Below are positions 20,321 through 53,427 of a stretch of 64,000 nucleotides of DNA, piece by piece. Below the pieces are notes generated by a model that saw only the letters and a program-made list of their open reading frames with translations, was not told the DNA's origin and made no database searches. This stretch comes from Bdellovibrio sp. NC01 (GTDB lineage Bacteria > Bdellovibrionota > Bdellovibrionia > Bdellovibrionales > Bdellovibrionaceae), in the NCBI RefSeq assembly GCF_006874625.1, contig NZ_CP030034.1, forward strand, positions 1,674,001 through 1,738,000, in the 5' to 3' direction. Within the stretch, counting starts at the first letter, position 1. Every line of letters starts with the position of its first letter. The position numbers and the translations under genes were made by a program.

Positions 20321-21175
20321 ATGAAGCATTTGTCGTCGGTTATTTGTGGCATCGTTTTGTTAATCTCTGGTGAAGCGACTTTTGCCGCGGATGGAAAATC
20401 CGATCCAATGATTATTCACCCGGGTGAAGTTCGTTTTCTCAAAATTCATTCTGAAGTGAAAAACGCGAAGCTTTTCTGTCGTAATCAGGAAGTTCGCGCA
20501 TACAACGACGGCAAGAATGAATATGTTGCCTATATCTCTGAAAGTTATTTTTCAGAACTCAAACCCTTTGAATGTCTATTAAAGGACGGTGAGAAGGAGT
20601 TGGAAAAAGTATCTTTTAAAGTTGAAGCCAAACAATACCAAATCGAAACCTTAAAAGTTCCTCCGCGTTTGGTGAAGCTGTCTGCGAAAGATCAAATTCG
20701 TGTCGATGCGGAAACAAAAATGCTGAAAGAGCTTTATGAAAATTCCAATGCGAAGCCGTACTTCACAGAAGTCTTTAAGCAACCGTTGAAGAGCGTTATC
20801 ACAAGTCCCTATGGTATCAAGCGAGTTTTTAACGGTGATACGAACGGACAGCATCTTGGTTATGATTTTCGCGCAGGTATTGGCAAAAAAATATCTGTTT
20901 CTAATACTGGAAAAGTTGTATTTGCTGGCGAACTTTTCCGCTCTGGCAATATCGTCATCGTCGATCATGGCTTGGGAATATTCACCCAGTATCACCATCT
21001 TTCAAAAATTCTAGTGAAGAAAGATCAAGAAGTTAAACAAGGACAAATCATCGCACTTGCGGGTAACACGGGCAGAGTGTCGGGACCTCATCTTCATTGG
21101 GGTGTAAATGTCCAAGGTGAAGCAGTCGACGGATTTAGTTTAGTCCAGGCTTCCGAATCTGAATTTACTCACTAA
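20321..21175 (+). CDS. Exported M23 (LytM-type) peptidase
   Basis: A 284-residue periplasmic protein with signal peptide (residues 1-22). It has a beta-rich N-terminal domain and a C-terminal M23 domain (about residues 150-280). All zinc and catalytic residues are present: His178 and Asp182 in GQHLGYDF, His257 and His259 in GPHLHWGV. It should cut peptide cross-links of peptidoglycan. In a predator this could act on its own wall during growth or on prey wall; the sequence cannot tell which. It follows the hydrolase gene by 12 nt. Confidence 0.9.
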   Translation: MKHLSSVICGIVLLISGEATFAADGKSDPMIIHPGEVRFLKIHSEVKNAKLFCRNQEVRAYNDGKNEYVAYISESYFSELKPFECLLKDGEKELEKVSFKVEAKQYQIETLKVPPRLVKLSAKDQIRVDAETKMLKELYENSNAKPYFTEVFKQPLKSVITSPYGIKRVFNGDTNGQHLGYDFRAGIGKKISVSNTGKVVFAGELFRSGNIVIVDHGLGIFTQYHHLSKILVKKDQEVKQGQIIALAGNTGRVSGPHLHWGVNVQGEAVDGFSLVQASESEFTH

Positions 21176-21327
21176 ACCAAGGAGTCTTGTTCTAAGAACG
21201 TAGGCCCTGTCAGAATATGTCGAAAATGTCTCGAAAAGAGCAGTTTCACTCCCTAAAAGCGCGTCTTTTTCTTAAGGGATCCCCTCTGAAAACCGATAAT
21301 TAGATACCGGAACGTGCGAGGGGTAGG

Positions 21328-24300
21328 ATGCCTGTATTTACTTATATTCTCACTGCATTAATTTTCCTTTCTCAAGCTGTGTTCGCTTCTCCAGCGACGC
21401 TTGAATATCAAGGGCGTATTTTAAAATCTGACGGCACTCCTTTAGAGTACGGTAACGTTTCGTTTCTTTTTCAAATTACAGACCCCGCTGGTAGTTGCAT
21501 CATTTATCAAGAACTCCGTTCCGGTTATAGCATGGTGAATTCGCGCGGTATTTTTGATGTGCCGATCGGCTCAGGAACCGTGCAATATCCTTTAAGCGGT
21601 GGAACTTCGATTCTTGATATCTTCGACAACTCTGCAAACTTCTATTGTGGTTCTTGTTCAAGTTCTGGCAGTTCGTATACGTGTTCTGCAACGACGACTC
21701 AGTATGCGCCTGTTGTTTCTGATGGTCGTTTGTTGCGCGTATCTTTTTACGATGGCAGTGGTTGGAAAACAATTTCACCAGATAACGTGATTCGTTCAGT
21801 TCCTTATTCTGGTTTCGCTATGACGGCGCAAAAATTAGGAACAAATGTCGCGAGTGATTTCTTGCTTAAAGCTGGGTTGCCAACATGTTCTGCCGGTACA
21901 TTCTTGTCATGGAATGGTTCAAGCTTATCTTGTGCGGGTGTATCAGGTTCAAGTGGTGGTACGGTTACTAACGTTGTTTCAAGCAACGCTTATTTAAGTA
22001 TCGTGAATGGAGCAACGACTCCGACATTAACAGTAAACGTTGGAACAACAGCGAATACAGTGGCTGCCGGTAACGACACACGTATTGTGAATGCAATTCA
22101 AACGGGTGCTTCAGCAGGCGGCGATTTGTCTGGAACTCTGCCTTCCCCAACGGTCGCAAAAATTCAGGGTGTTGCAGTTAGTACAACGGCTCCAGCATCT
22201 GGCAACGTACTAAAATACAGCGGCAGTAACTGGGCACCGACGGCTCTTGCAACCAGTGATGTGTCAGGTCTTGATACTGCGTTAAGTGGTAAGATCAGTG
22301 CTTCGCAAATTTCAGGAAGCTGTGCTGCGAATCAAACTCTTGTGTTTCTTTCACCGACAAGCACTTGGACTTGTACGAATATTTCTTTAAACGATTCGCA
22401 GATCACTTATGCCTCTCGTTCTGCTAATCAATTTTTAGCGTCACCTGATAATGCAAGTGGTGCTCCGACTTTCCGTGCGATGACTTCTGCCGACTTGCCA
22501 GCGGGTACCCTGTCAGGTGCGGGAACTGCGGGATATGTCCCGTATTATAATGCAAGCTCAACACTTACAAATTCAATGCTGTATTATGATGGTTCAAACT
22601 TGGGTCTTAACACTTCATCGCCAGCAGCTAAAGTTCATGTCGTTGATGAAGGCACGGGAGTCGTTTTATTCGATAACTATTCTTCAGTGGCATCAACAAA
22701 TCCTGCGTTGATTGGTCGTAAAGCAGGTGGCACGAAGGCAAGTCCGACGGCTGTGACAAATGCGCAAACATTGATGTTCATTGGTGCTCGCGGTTATACA
22801 GGTACGGCTTTCAGTTCGGCTTCAAAAGCTTCATTGATGATGTCAGCTGCTGAAAACTGGAGTGATACTGCCCAAGGGACGAAGGTTGGCATTTTCACAA
22901 CGACAAACGGTGGAACAACGTCGGCGGAACGCGTGCGAATTGAAAACAACGGTTATGTCGGTATCGGGACGACTACTCCTACTTCACAACTTGAAGTCCG
23001 TGGTGGTCTTGCTGTTTCAAATTCAAATGCGTCGGTAGCCATTGCTTTGAAGCCTGAAGATCCAACGAGCACTTATACAAATACGGCGGATGAACGTTGG
23101 TTTCAATTGATGACGACAACGATCGGGACCGACATCAATTACAAATTCTCGTGGAGAAATGCTGACGGCAGTTCGCGTTCAGACGTCATGAACTTTTTAA
23201 AGGACGGCACCGTAAATTTCCTGAACAAAGTTGGTATTAACACCAATACTCCACGCGTGACTGTAGATATGGCGAATGCGACGGATGCATTGGGTTTGCC
23301 GACGGGGACAACAGCTCAACGTCCGACGACTTTGAACATTGGTATGATCCGTTGGAACAAAGACAATGTCGCTGCAGAAATTTACAATGGCACGGCGTGG
23401 GTCAGCCTTGGCACTTATTCCGGCACTGGTGCCTATTCGAACGTATCAACCATCACGGGTTCAAGTAGTGGTTTGTCAGTTTCTGCGGGTGGTACAAATC
23501 AAGATCTGACTTTATCTGGAACAGGGACGGGGGTTGTTAAAACAGGCTCGGTCATGACCGTGACAAATTCAACGGCTTCGACAGGTTATAATAACGGTGC
23601 TCTTGTAGTCAGTGGTGGTGTCGGCGTCAATGGCAATATCAATGCGAGTGGTAACATCGCGACATCGGGTGCTGTTAGTGGTAGTACACTTTATGCGCCA
23701 CAAATTTATGGTGGCACAACAGCTTCACAAAATATTTCTATTGATTCAACTTCCCATGCAACCAAAGGAAGTATTTTACTCGCTTCCAGTGGTGGCAATG
23801 TGGGCGTTGGTACGGCGACTCCGAATGCGTTGCTAGCGCTCAATTCCACGGACGCTAATGCAACGGGACCTTACTCGATCATTGCACAAACGGGTGTGAC
23901 AAATAATGTTTACGTGAATGGTTTAGCAAATATCACAAGCACAACGACGACGGCGAATTCCGTTTATGGTTCTTTAAACTATGTGACTTTTGCTCCTTCA
24001 GCGAACTCATCAGCAGAAGGTTCAGCGAGTCAAAGTGAAGTCGTCGTACCGGCAACTTCTAATGTTACGCTTTCGAATTATCTTTATGGCGGTCAAGCCA
24101 AGACTGTAAATTTGGGCAGCGGTAATATCACTGGCGGCATGCAGGCGATGTACACGTACGCCGCCAATGCGGGTACAGGAACAGTTGCAAATTTAATGGG
24201 GGCTGCTGCAAATGCCGGTAACTTCTCGACAGGCACTGTGAGCAACCTCTATGGCTTAAGAATTACGACCAACAATTTAGCTGGCGGTACAGTGACGAAT

Positions 24301-25767
24301 GCATATGGTCTGTACGTCGGTGGTCTTGGGGCTGGTGGCGGTACATATACAAACACACCTTATGATATTTACGCTTCGGACTCAGGCGCGAATAATTATT
24401 TTGCTGGTAAAACGGGAATAGGCACGGCGGCTCCGCTGAATAAGTTAGATGTTAGTGGTGGAGTTGTCATCGGCTCAGGTTATGCCGGAGTAAAAACAGC
24501 GCCGACGAATGGTTTGGCTGTTCAAGGTCCTGTCTATGTCAATCAGTCGGCGGCTTATACGACAAACACTATGACGACTCCGATATTTCAAGTGTCAAAT
24601 GTGGGCGATTCGAATGCAGGGTTTAATACATTTAGCAATGCGGGATCTGGTTTTCAAAGTCGCATCTTGCTGAATCGTTCTCGCGGTTCGACTGTCGGTG
24701 ATTTCACAGCGACGCAAAGTGGTGATGGTCTTGGCAGTATTCACTTTGGGGGATCTGATGGCGCGGGACTTTTCACAGCGGCTGTGATTTCGGGCCTTGT
24801 GGATAATACCGTTGCAACGGGCGTTGTTCCGGGACGTCTGACATTCCAAACAGTGAATTCCTCAGGAACATTGATGGAGCGTATGCGTATTGATTCAAGT
24901 GGTAACGTTGGTATTGGTACGACGGCTCCGCCAACGAAGTTAGCGATTGTCCCTAGCGTTTATACCGCAGCCGTAGATGGTGTTCAGTTCATGAGTTCTG
25001 ATAACTCTATTCACAGTATCATTCAGCCGATTAAGGTTGCGAATGGCGCGATGAATTTGTATTTGGGTGCAAACACTTATGCGAGTACGAGCGGAACGGG
25101 CTTGCCGCAATTTAGCAATGCCGTAGCTTCTGCGGGTATCAATATCAGATCCGATAGTGGTGCACTTCATTTCATTACGGGTCCTGTCGGAAGTACGCCA
25201 ACAGTGCAGATGGTATTTAATTCGAGTGGTAATTTAGGTATCGGTACGAGTGGTCCGGGATATCGCTTGGAAGTTCAAGGTGGTGACATTTATACGGGCG
25301 GATACTTCCGTTCGCCCAATGGAACAATTCAAACTTCTGATATTCGTTTTAAAAAGAACATCGCGCCGATTGAAAATGCCTTGGATAAGATCTTATCTCT
25401 GCGTGGTGTGACTTACGATTGGCGCCAAGAAGAATTCCCCGATAAGAACTTTAGCGATAGACATCAAATCGGTGTGATTGCGCAAGAGGTGGAAACTAAA
25501 TTCCCTGAAGCCGTCGCCGTTGATAAACAAGGTTATAAGTCAGTGAACTACGCAGTTCTTGTTGCGCCGTTGATCAATGCAGTCAAAGAGCTTTATGCGA
25601 AAATGACAGGTCATGATGAACAGATCGCCAATGTGACTCGCAGATTAGCGAGCATTGAGGAAAGTAAAAAGACAGATAAAGCTGAAATTGATTCTTTGAA
25701 AAAAGAAAACGCAGCACTGAAGGCATATCTGTGCGCAAAAGATCCGAAAGCTCCAATCTGTCGTTAA
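21328..25767 (+). CDS. Giant secreted fibre with S74 chaperone (MAT-like)
   Basis: A 1479-residue protein with a signal peptide (residues 1-21, ending VFASP). A globular N-terminal domain of about 180 residues contains a CGSCSSSGSSYTC cluster. A long Ser/Thr/Gly/Ala-rich shaft follows. At least seven copies of a module ending like GIGTxxPxxxLEV recur (DNA near 22600, 22960, 23235, 23805, 24415, 24910, 25235). The C-terminus is an intramolecular chaperone of peptidase family S74: SDIRFKKNI with the self-cleavage pair Ser1337 and Lys1342, then YDWRQEE, IGVIAQEVETKFPEAV, YKSVNYAVLVAPLINAVKEL and a coiled coil. The chaperone drives trimerisation and is usually cut off. This is the layout of Bdellovibrio mosaic adhesive trimer fibres that bind prey surfaces. 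Which ligand it binds is unknown. Confidence 0.88.
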   Translation: MPVFTYILTALIFLSQAVFASPATLEYQGRILKSDGTPLEYGNVSFLFQITDPAGSCIIYQELRSGYSMVNSRGIFDVPIGSGTVQYPLSGGTSILDIFDNSANFYCGSCSSSGSSYTCSATTTQYAPVVSDGRLLRVSFYDGSGWKTISPDNVIRSVPYSGFAMTAQKLGTNVASDFLLKAGLPTCSAGTFLSWNGSSLSCAGVSGSSGGTVTNVVSSNAYLSIVNGATTPTLTVNVGTTANTVAAGNDTRIVNAIQTGASAGGDLSGTLPSPTVAKIQGVAVSTTAPASGNVLKYSGSNWAPTALATSDVSGLDTALSGKISASQISGSCAANQTLVFLSPTSTWTCTNISLNDSQITYASRSANQFLASPDNASGAPTFRAMTSADLPAGTLSGAGTAGYVPYYNASSTLTNSMLYYDGSNLGLNTSSPAAKVHVVDEGTGVVLFDNYSSVASTNPALIGRKAGGTKASPTAVTNAQTLMFIGARGYTGTAFSSASKASLMMSAAENWSDTAQGTKVGIFTTTNGGTTSAERVRIENNGYVGIGTTTPTSQLEVRGGLAVSNSNASVAIALKPEDPTSTYTNTADERWFQLMTTTIGTDINYKFSWRNADGSSRSDVMNFLKDGTVNFLNKVGINTNTPRVTVDMANATDALGLPTGTTAQRPTTLNIGMIRWNKDNVAAEIYNGTAWVSLGTYSGTGAYSNVSTITGSSSGLSVSAGGTNQDLTLSGTGTGVVKTGSVMTVTNSTASTGYNNGALVVSGGVGVNGNINASGNIATSGAVSGSTLYAPQIYGGTTASQNISIDSTSHATKGSILLASSGGNVGVGTATPNALLALNSTDANATGPYSIIAQTGVTNNVYVNGLANITSTTTTANSVYGSLNYVTFAPSANSSAEGSASQSEVVVPATSNVTLSNYLYGGQAKTVNLGSGNITGGMQAMYTYAANAGTGTVANLMGAAANAGNFSTGTVSNLYGLRITTNNLAGGTVTNAYGLYVGGLGAGGGTYTNTPYDIYASDSGANNYFAGKTGIGTAAPLNKLDVSGGVVIGSGYAGVKTAPTNGLAVQGPVYVNQSAAYTTNTMTTPIFQVSNVGDSNAGFNTFSNAGSGFQSRILLNRSRGSTVGDFTATQSGDGLGSIHFGGSDGAGLFTAAVISGLVDNTVATGVVPGRLTFQTVNSSGTLMERMRIDSSGNVGIGTTAPPTKLAIVPSVYTAAVDGVQFMSSDNSIHSIIQPIKVANGAMNLYLGANTYASTSGTGLPQFSNAVASAGINIRSDSGALHFITGPVGSTPTVQMVFNSSGNLGIGTSGPGYRLEVQGGDIYTGGYFRSPNGTIQTSDIRFKKNIAPIENALDKILSLRGVTYDWRQEEFPDKNFSDRHQIGVIAQEVETKFPEAVAVDKQGYKSVNYAVLVAPLINAVKELYAKMTGHDEQIANVTRRLASIEESKKTDKAEIDSLKKENAALKAYLCAKDPKAPICR

Positions 25768-25921: not shown

Positions 25922-26383
25922 ATGAAGAAACTTGTCATGTTTGCGCTATTTGTGATCTGTCCACTTATCTCTTTTGCTGGTCCTGAAGATCACACTCCAG
26001 GCGCTGTTTACATCGCAAACGATACAGCTGTTCCGTACTATCTTTTGGAACTAAAATTCGATACGGCAACTCTTTCGCCTGATCATGATTCTTTAACTCT
26101 TGAAGCACGTTACGGAAATTTGTTTGGTCAGTTTCCTGTGACATTCACATCTCGTCACAACGAAGACAGATTGAACTTCAAAGCAGAAAAAACTTTGTTC
26201 AATCGTTGGACGGCGACATGTGGTTTTGCTGAAAAAGCTGTGGCTTATATCGCAGGTGAAGAAGCTTATGGCGAAGTAAATCCAAAGTACTTGGAGATCG
26301 TAGTTGTTTACACTTCGGCTCAAAACGCGTGTGCTGCTGATTCCGTACAGACAAAAGCGATCACGTACAGATTGAACCAATAA
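25922..26383 (+). CDS. Secreted protein of unknown function
   Basis: A 153-residue protein with signal peptide MKKLVMFALFVICPLISFAG. The start at 25922 has a GAGGAG ribosome site; the longer in-frame start at 25865 would run through the VOC remnant. Two cysteines (TATCGFAEKA, QNACAADS) may pair. The mature part looks beta-rich (LLELKFDTATLSP, YLEIVVVYTSAQN). No family is recognised. A terminator follows. Confidence 0.75.
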   Translation: MKKLVMFALFVICPLISFAGPEDHTPGAVYIANDTAVPYYLLELKFDTATLSPDHDSLTLEARYGNLFGQFPVTFTSRHNEDRLNFKAEKTLFNRWTATCGFAEKAVAYIAGEEAYGEVNPKYLEIVVVYTSAQNACAADSVQTKAITYRLNQ

Positions 26384-27473: not shown

Positions 27474-28163
27474 ATGGCGATGTGCAAAATATTATGCTTT
27501 GGCCGATCTGCGGGATCGGAGTTTATTGAAAAATACGTGGCTGAAGGAAAGGGGCAGATCGATCTGGTAACCGTTCCTCATTTGGACAAAGGCGCTGTTC
27601 TTGAAGCAAAGCCAGATTTGGTTCTGTTGACGGAGCCTATCATCGATCGTTTGCTTTCAAATCCATTTTTGCAAGAGCTCGAGTCTGAACATCGTTTTTC
27701 AATTTTTAGTTTTTTAAATAAAGACGATGTGGCTTATCGCTTGAAGTCTTATCAAGTGGGCGCACAAGATTGTTTAAGCCTTGAGATGGTCCCTGAAGAA
27801 TTGCACTTTAAGATGTCTATCTTAACTCGACGTACGAACTTGCTGCGCAATGTTCCACCTACGATCGAACTGAAGAATATGCTGATCTTCCCTGCGTACA
27901 AAAGAGTTTTGATTAATAATCAAGAAGTGCGTTTGGCGAATAAGGAATATGAAATTCTTCTGCTGTTGATTAAGAAGCGCGAACAGTTTGTGACAGCAGC
28001 AGAAATTATTGCGTCGATATGGAAGGGCGCGACGGTTTCTCAAGGAAACATCTACACGCAGATTCATAATCTCAAACGTAAAATTAAAAACTTCGATGGC
28101 ACGATTGCTTCACAATATGGAGTGGGTTTTCGACTGTACGTCGAGCCTCCATCAGATTCTTAA
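27474..28163 (+). CDS. OmpR-type regulator with degenerate receiver
   Basis: A 229-residue protein. The C-terminal half (about residues 128-222) is an OmpR/PhoB winged helix: VRLANKEYEILLLLIKKREQFVTAAEIIASIW, ending QYGVGFRLYVEP. The N-terminal half has the alternating strands of a receiver (KILCFGRS, PDLVLLTEP, FSIFSFLNKDD, QVGAQDCLS). The phosphoacceptor Asp is replaced by Thr53, and the acidic pair after strand 1 is missing. It is therefore probably phosphorylation-independent. No histidine kinase gene is adjacent. The ATG lacks a strong ribosome site; the preceding text is AAGGAATATGGCG. Confidence 0.82.
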   Translation: MAMCKILCFGRSAGSEFIEKYVAEGKGQIDLVTVPHLDKGAVLEAKPDLVLLTEPIIDRLLSNPFLQELESEHRFSIFSFLNKDDVAYRLKSYQVGAQDCLSLEMVPEELHFKMSILTRRTNLLRNVPPTIELKNMLIFPAYKRVLINNQEVRLANKEYEILLLLIKKREQFVTAAEIIASIWKGATVSQGNIYTQIHNLKRKIKNFDGTIASQYGVGFRLYVEPPSDS

Positions 28164-48251: not shown

Positions 48252-49773
<1,522 letters not shown>

Positions 49774-49922
49774 TATCCGGTCGATCTTCATCAAGACTTG
49801 ATCTTGATAAGTCAAAACGACCCAATCTTAGGTCAACGCTCCTCTTCCCGAGGAAGCGTGAGTCCCAAAAATCTTTTCTAGCTATTTAGTTTTGAAAGAG
49901 TGAAAACTCTTCGAAGCATCTA

Positions 49923-50003
<81 letters not shown>

Positions 50004-50124
50004 ACTAATTGATCAGTTGGACTGTTGGAATGTTTTGAGGATTTTTGCTTGTGAACGTTTTTCGTTCTTTGACAATTGAATAGATTGATTTAGTTGATTT
50101 TTAGCGAGGTTAGTTCCATTTTTT

Positions 50125-53060
<2,936 letters not shown>

Positions 53061-53309
53061 AAAAAATTTTCTTCTTAACATTGTTAACGAAGTTTTCGTC
53101 TCAAAGACTTTTCCTTCGGGAAAATAGAGACTATCTCTCTGAATAAGTAAGAGAGCTAAATCTGGAACTAACCAGTAATCGCTAAAAATCAGCTAAATCA
53201 ATCATTCAGTTATCAAAATAAAACGTAACTTCTCCATTTGGATTGGAAGAAAGTTGCAAAACGAAAAAGGAAGTACTAAGAATGCTTCCACTTTGATTAA
53301 TAAACGCTT

Positions 53310-53427
53310 TGCTGGTGTTTATAGCAGAGGGGCCACACCTGATCCCATTCCGAACTCAGAAGTTAAGTCCTCTTGCGGCGATGGTATTGCACGGGCAACC
53401 GTGTGGGAGAGTAGCACGACGCCAGCT
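53310..53427 (+). rRNA. rrf: 5S ribosomal RNA
   Basis: About 117 nt. The closing helix GCTGGTG/CGCCAGC and the conserved CCGAACTCAGAAGTTAAG are present. It lies about 250 nt after the 23S gene. Confidence 0.93.

Follow-up and report, generated by a model that had tools for sequence, protein, structure and literature searches.

A 64,000-nt window of Bdellovibrio sp. NC01 (contig NZ_CP030034.1, positions 1,674,001 to 1,738,000) carries, at window positions 21328..25767 on the + strand, a gene for a 1479-residue fibre that, by its open reading frame (ORF) and its Pfam and NCBIfam matches, is a further member of an already known family, the mosaic adhesive trimer (MAT) proteins, and of its S74 subgroup. 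The product is very probably an attack-phase fibre that cleaves itself and contacts prey glycan through a β-helix tip. Sequence establishes that it belongs to the family, that it has the S74 dyad and the module layout, that its ancestry is chimeric and that its gene has a promoter match, whereas its surface location, cleavage, trimeric state, glycan binding and specificity, and role towards prey are inferred. New here are the enrichment of FliA promoters across MAT genes, a GHACGT element at their 5′ ends and the prediction of leaderless paralogues. How the predator recognises many prey is an open question, for which MAT fibres are the leading candidates.

Family membership and domain layout

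The ORF is intact, and its ATG is the first standard start codon past an in-frame stop; its coordinates and length reproduce those of an initial annotation made by reading the DNA alone. The NCBIfam model NF053851 (Bdello_MAT_N, "mosaic adhesive trimer family chimeric fiber protein") covers residues 11-182 and scores 205.9 bits, the cut-off being 60 (E 3e-61). A phmmer search of the PDB returned the MAT structures 8OML, 8ON4, 8OND and 8OL4 together with 6F45, a phage long tail fibre chaperone, and a profile built from the tip and S74 ends of the 23 S74 MATs of this genome found MyRF (7DC3), Bd2133, a phage tail fibre and Bd3182 (8OJN, E 7.6e-13). The proposal that the gene encodes a Bdellovibrio mosaic adhesive trimer is thus borne out by the family model, the crystal-structure matches and the reach of the S74 profile to Bd3182. 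As published (Caulton et al. 2024; PMC10769870), a MAT begins with a signal peptide and a β-rich N-domain of ~130 residues, continues as a long trimeric shaft that bears capping loops and ends in a tip of the S74 or another type; those parts of this layout that can be read from a sequence are present in the fibre, the signal peptide as a putative one.

All features of the gene given below lie on the + strand. A putative signal peptide (residues 1-20, 21328..21387) was assigned by inspection: judged by eye, the N-terminus (MPVFTYILTALIFLSQAVFA, then SP after the cleavage site) has the hydrophobic core and plausible cleavage site of the export signal claimed in the initial annotation, and lacks the positively charged n-region expected before the core. 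The conserved N-terminal base domain follows at 21388..21873, as delimited by Bdello_MAT_N and the paralogue alignment, and is 47-72% identical to that of 27 of the 29 other MATs of the genome (32-33% for the remaining two). The proximal shaft (residues 183-561, 21874..23010), defined by comparison within the genome and the genus, is common to most MATs up to residue 354 and, up to about residue 561, is shared with three paralogues (L128, L026 and L034). Beyond it, the distal shaft (residues 562-1170, 23011..24837), with capping loops at 635, 825 and 1029, has only weak relatives among the MATs of the genome. Seven recurring GIGT-type modules had been noticed in the protein; all were located (22600..25269), starting at residues 425, 544, 635, 825, 1029, 1194 and 1303, and all fit the published MAT capping-loop consensus, V-G-G/N-π-X-X-P-X-X-X-L (PMC10769870), which identifies them as MAT capping loops. 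The stretch at residues 1190-1336 (24895..25335), equivalent to the crystallised Bd3182 tip and covered by the profile match to 8OJN, is a putative β-helix tip that would be exposed after cleavage.

The intramolecular chaperone lies at 25336..25515, where Pfam PF13884 (Peptidase_S74) matches residues 1337-1396 with E 2.3e-19 and 69.9 bits against a cut-off of 22. The initial annotation had named an S74 search as one check that could overturn its reading; this match is what the search returned. The Ser and Lys five residues apart that it had pointed out are found as Ser1337-Asp-Ile-Arg-Phe-Lys1342 (Ser1337, 25336-25338; Lys1342, 25351-25353). S1337, D1338 and K1342 of the SDxxxK motif do not vary among the 23 S74 MATs of the genome, and the same three residues are kept in 8/8 rows of an alignment that includes phage sequences, one row of which reads KNNI and retains the Ser, Asp and first Lys. 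When the tip and S74 region were run as a monomer in AlphaFold2 (AF2) with these 8 rows, the chaperone part alone was modelled, with a predicted local distance difference test (pLDDT) score mostly of 65-84, including the helices of a C-terminal coiled coil (25540..25764) with an LCxxxPxAxxC-type ending. The modelled chaperone best matches the ICA domain of MyRF (7DC3, E 6e-5) and, weakly, two other intramolecular chaperones, 3GUD and 3GW6. MyRF is a eukaryotic membrane-bound transcription factor, unlike the fibre, and has a Ser/Lys dyad with the same spacing of five: S587 and K592 are needed for cleavage (S587A/K592A), which requires trimers. In Bdellovibrio HD100, Bd3182 cleaves itself at the S74 serine and the S782A mutant does not (PMC10769870). 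Given these cleavage data and the conserved dyad, autoproteolysis before Ser1337 is to be expected.

The cysteine cluster CGSCSSSGSSYTC at residues 107-119 (21646..21684) had been called unusual for such fibres. Alignment of the 30 MAT paralogues of the genome places it among the traits of the family: Cys57, Cys107, Cys187 and Cys202 are invariant in 30/30, while Cys110 and Cys119 belong to an optional insertion and occur jointly in 9/30, never one alone. The cluster was accordingly dropped as a special feature of this fibre, and the pattern of conserved and paired cysteines suggests disulphides.

Chimeric ancestry and the MAT repertoire

The genome (3.98 Mb, single contig) holds 30 genes with the MAT base domain, 23 of the S74 kind and 7 non-S74, compared with the 13 S74 and 8 non-S74 MATs (21 in total) reported for HD100 (PMC10769870). 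A Bd2133 fragment has a 100% match in one genome of the genus (G001) and none such here, and we therefore take G001 to be HD100 or a strain almost identical to it and the window genome to be a different one. The base domain was found in 118 of 369 genomes of the phylum, including 24/24 of the genus. No full-length orthologue of the fibre was found in the 23 other genomes of the genus, HD100 included; the strong matches there cover about residues 2-480 only, mostly ending near 354, at no more than ~61% identity, and correspond to the base and proximal shaft.

Different parts of the fibre have different closest relatives within the genome. Residues 7-561 are nearest to the non-S74 paralogue L128 (50%) and residues 3-400 to L042 (63%), residues ~562-1020 give weak matches only, and residues 1171-1479 are nearest to L036 and L031; the nearest bases (L128, L042, L130) and nearest ends (L036, L031) are found in different genes. 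The paralogue L128 (G000:C1:3880500-3884500), a 768-residue non-S74 MAT with a different tip, forms a natural tip-swap pair with the fibre over the region they share. In a tree of base domains the window gene falls into one group with L034, L042 and the non-S74 L130 (97/96), and S74 and non-S74 members are scattered, requiring 6 changes, about the mean for shuffled labels. The S74 tree, in contrast, places L042 in a distant clade (100/99), and approximately unbiased (AU) tests on it rejected a grouping of the window gene with L034 and L042 (p 4.4e-5) as well as a five-member group of genes with the cysteine pair (p 1.2e-5). Both trees have many weak branches, and our claims are confined to these specific conflicts, which indicate that bases and ends have been exchanged. 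Judged by these trees, the fibre gene is a chimera whose base and S74 end differ in ancestry. With 30 MATs here, 21 reported in HD100, and evidence for the exchange of bases and ends, repertoires become comparable between species.

Attack-phase promoter and the 5′ region of MAT genes

In HD100, 140 attack-phase promoters have been mapped, 66% of which contain TTAAG-N16-CCGATA, attributed to FliA (Karunker et al. 2013; PMC3627812). The single exact copy of this FliA (σ28)-type consensus in the 64-kb window lies at 21272..21298 (+), 29 nt before the fibre ATG. There are 12 exact sites in the whole genome and none for the pattern read backwards, and by simple arithmetic the chance that the 100 nt ahead of a named gene contain an exact site is about 1 in 7000. 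Each of the remaining 11 has an ORF start at most 70 nt downstream; the genes include those for FliL, two PilZ proteins and a T2SSE ATPase. This last site (G000:C1:980356-980382, L140) is 3 nt before the ORF of the T2SSE/CpaF-like ATPase and possibly places pilus genes under attack-phase control. The genome has a FliA gene, and the exact promoter points to expression of the fibre while attack-phase cells swim freely. Sites with a score of 9 or more out of 11 precede 15 of the 30 MAT genes of the genome as against 2 of 51 other genes of the window (p 1.6e-6); in the MATs of other genomes the count was 15/25, versus 1 on the opposite strand.

Across the genus, CCGATAA occurs at 64 of 108 MAT genes, where 0.7 would be expected. 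Among the 63 MAT genes whose promoter scores 9.5 or more out of 12, the start codon lies exactly 7 nt after CCGATAA in 50, including L025, L028, L029, L030, L031, L032, L037, L040, L133 and 40 loci of the genus. At this spacing the geometry of σ28 promoters would have transcription begin with the A of the ATG or an immediately neighbouring nucleotide. The spacing therefore predicts leaderless mRNA and suggests that many promoter-bearing MAT paralogues are leaderless. The window gene is an exception to this pattern, with its 29 nt between CCGATA box and ATG and a Shine-Dalgarno-like ribosome-binding site, GAGGGG, at 21318..21323 (+). In a search for literature on leaderless transcripts in Bdellovibrio, none of the titles listed was relevant.

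Of the 108 MAT genes, 86 carry a further element, GHACGT, at the 5′ end (window 21310-21315 and loci within L025-L046, L078-L106, L128-L134 and L163-L222), compared with 6.8 expected from first-order shuffles, 18 for the reversed element and 24 for the reverse complement of GHACGT. It mostly lies 10-20 nt past the ATG, in all three frames, and is upstream of the ATG in three genes including the window gene, whose copy (GAACGT, 21310..21315, +) lies 18 nt ahead of the start codon, within the 5′ leader. Outside the family it was seen in 2 of 50 window genes, and among the 12 genes with exact FliA sites it occurs at the fibre gene alone. Genome-wide, CCGATA followed by GHACGT gave 36 matches, and by their coordinates 11 of these are MAT starts; the backwards control gave 11 matches. 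ACG makes up 55% of the Thr codons at codons 2-9 of MAT genes and 19-21% later (21% over the remaining signal peptide). This excess and the use of all three frames do not favour a constraint on the protein, and conservation of GHACGT as nucleic acid is well supported. These counts come from related genes with rule-assigned start codons, and the element was defined post hoc and compared with first-order shuffles.

Taken together, these findings leave finely balanced the proposal that Bdellovibrio MAT genes share a 5′ control region, composed of a FliA promoter, a mostly leaderless ATG 7 nt after CCGATAA and a MAT-specific GHACGT in the first tens of transcript nucleotides, the last being where a shared regulator, either a protein or a small RNA, would act to coordinate or select the expression of fibres. 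A joint description of an attack-phase promoter and a GHACGT-type element at MAT gene starts was not found in the literature. If functional, the signature would offer a handle on how the whole MAT repertoire is switched on and coordinated, and would allow MAT genes to be found from DNA alone.

Proposed mechanism, alternatives and neighbouring genes

The FliA-type promoter would bring about expression in free-swimming cells, ahead of prey contact. The fibre would be exported, anchored at the predator surface through its conserved base domain and trimerised along the long β-helical shaft. Trimerisation would be driven by the S74 chaperone, which would then excise itself before Ser1337 by means of the Ser1337/Lys1342 dyad, exposing the β-helix tip (~residues 1190-1336) for contact with a prey surface glycan. 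That the fibre binds prey and cleaves itself are family-level inferences from experiments on HD100 paralogues, of which the tested MATs lie on the attack-phase surface and Bd2439 alone has been shown to bind prey surface glycan (PMC10769870). The closest counterpart of known structure is Bd3182 (PMC10769870; PDB 8ONC/8OJN/8ONB), which also has an N-terminal β-rich domain, capping loops and a β-helix tip before an SDxxxK S74 domain; the fibre is longer (1479 residues, whereas the construct of Bd3182 extends to residue 922) and has seven capping loops and a different shaft and tip sequence. The shaft modules of the non-S74 MATs Bd2133 and Bd1334 (8OND, 8OML) match those of the fibre directly in sequence, but these proteins end in independent β-sandwich tips rather than in S74.

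No evidence contradicts the S74 MAT fibre reading. The tip had a pLDDT below 50 in the AF2 monomer run, and the base domain, predicted from its single sequence, gave no usable model (pLDDT 32); both are gaps. In HD100, 4/6 single MAT deletions had no predation defect (PMC10769870), and the weight of this fibre in prey contact may therefore be small. The deletions also fit a MAT fibre that acts later, for instance by holding the vesicle or entry port in place within the prey or by attaching predators to surfaces or to one another, as does the movement of some HD100 MATs to the deposited vesicle or bdelloplast, where the S74-type Bd3182 is seen late, at 120-180 min (PMC10769870). Such a role is doubtful for the fibre, given the exact attack-phase promoter of its gene and the presence of all tested C-terminally tagged MATs on the surface before prey entry.

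That same surface detection of C-terminally tagged HD100 MATs, though mostly of the non-S74 kind, could be taken to mean that the S74 chaperone stays uncleaved and caps the tip, leaving the C-terminal coiled coil on display. The invariant dyad of the S74 MATs of the genome and the cleavage of Bd3182 make this quite improbable. Were the protein instead a phage tail fibre, from a prophage or domesticated, this would explain the matches of its C-terminal part to many PHROG tail-fibre families and the presence of S74 relatives on viral contigs. Phage S74 fibres and tailspikes, such as endosialidase NF and phage long tail fibres, likewise carry a Ser/Lys-dyad chaperone after a trimeric β-helix; they are, however, parts of virions. 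No relative of the MAT base domain was confirmed in viral contigs, and the S74 paralogue alignment was too diverged to give patterns for scanning them. The signal-peptide-like start, the MAT_N base domain, the 30 dispersed copies in the genome and the lack of phage genes among the neighbours examined make a phage origin exceedingly improbable, and as to identity the base domain and export signal rule out a phage tail fibre in practice.

Directly 5′ of the fibre gene is an M23 peptidase gene (20321-21175) that matches the Helicobacter cell-shape Pgp3 model with E 1.8e-66, under the cut-off of that model. Its relatives (51-54%) occur in three of the 23 other genomes of the genus only, and an OmpR-type regulator gene 3′ of the fibre (27474-28163) has no match there at E 1e-20; locus synteny is therefore not usable for finding an orthologue. 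No Rfam elements were found near the fibre gene, and σ70 promoters and terminators near it were no commoner than in shuffled sequence. Just 3′ of the fibre, 25922-26383 encodes a small protein of 153 residues with a signal-peptide-like start and without a Pfam or NCBIfam match, and between it and the OmpR-type gene lies a TIGR02147/DUF4423 helix-turn-helix gene. A complete rRNA operon (16S, tRNA, 23S, 5S) is located at 48252-53427 of the window.

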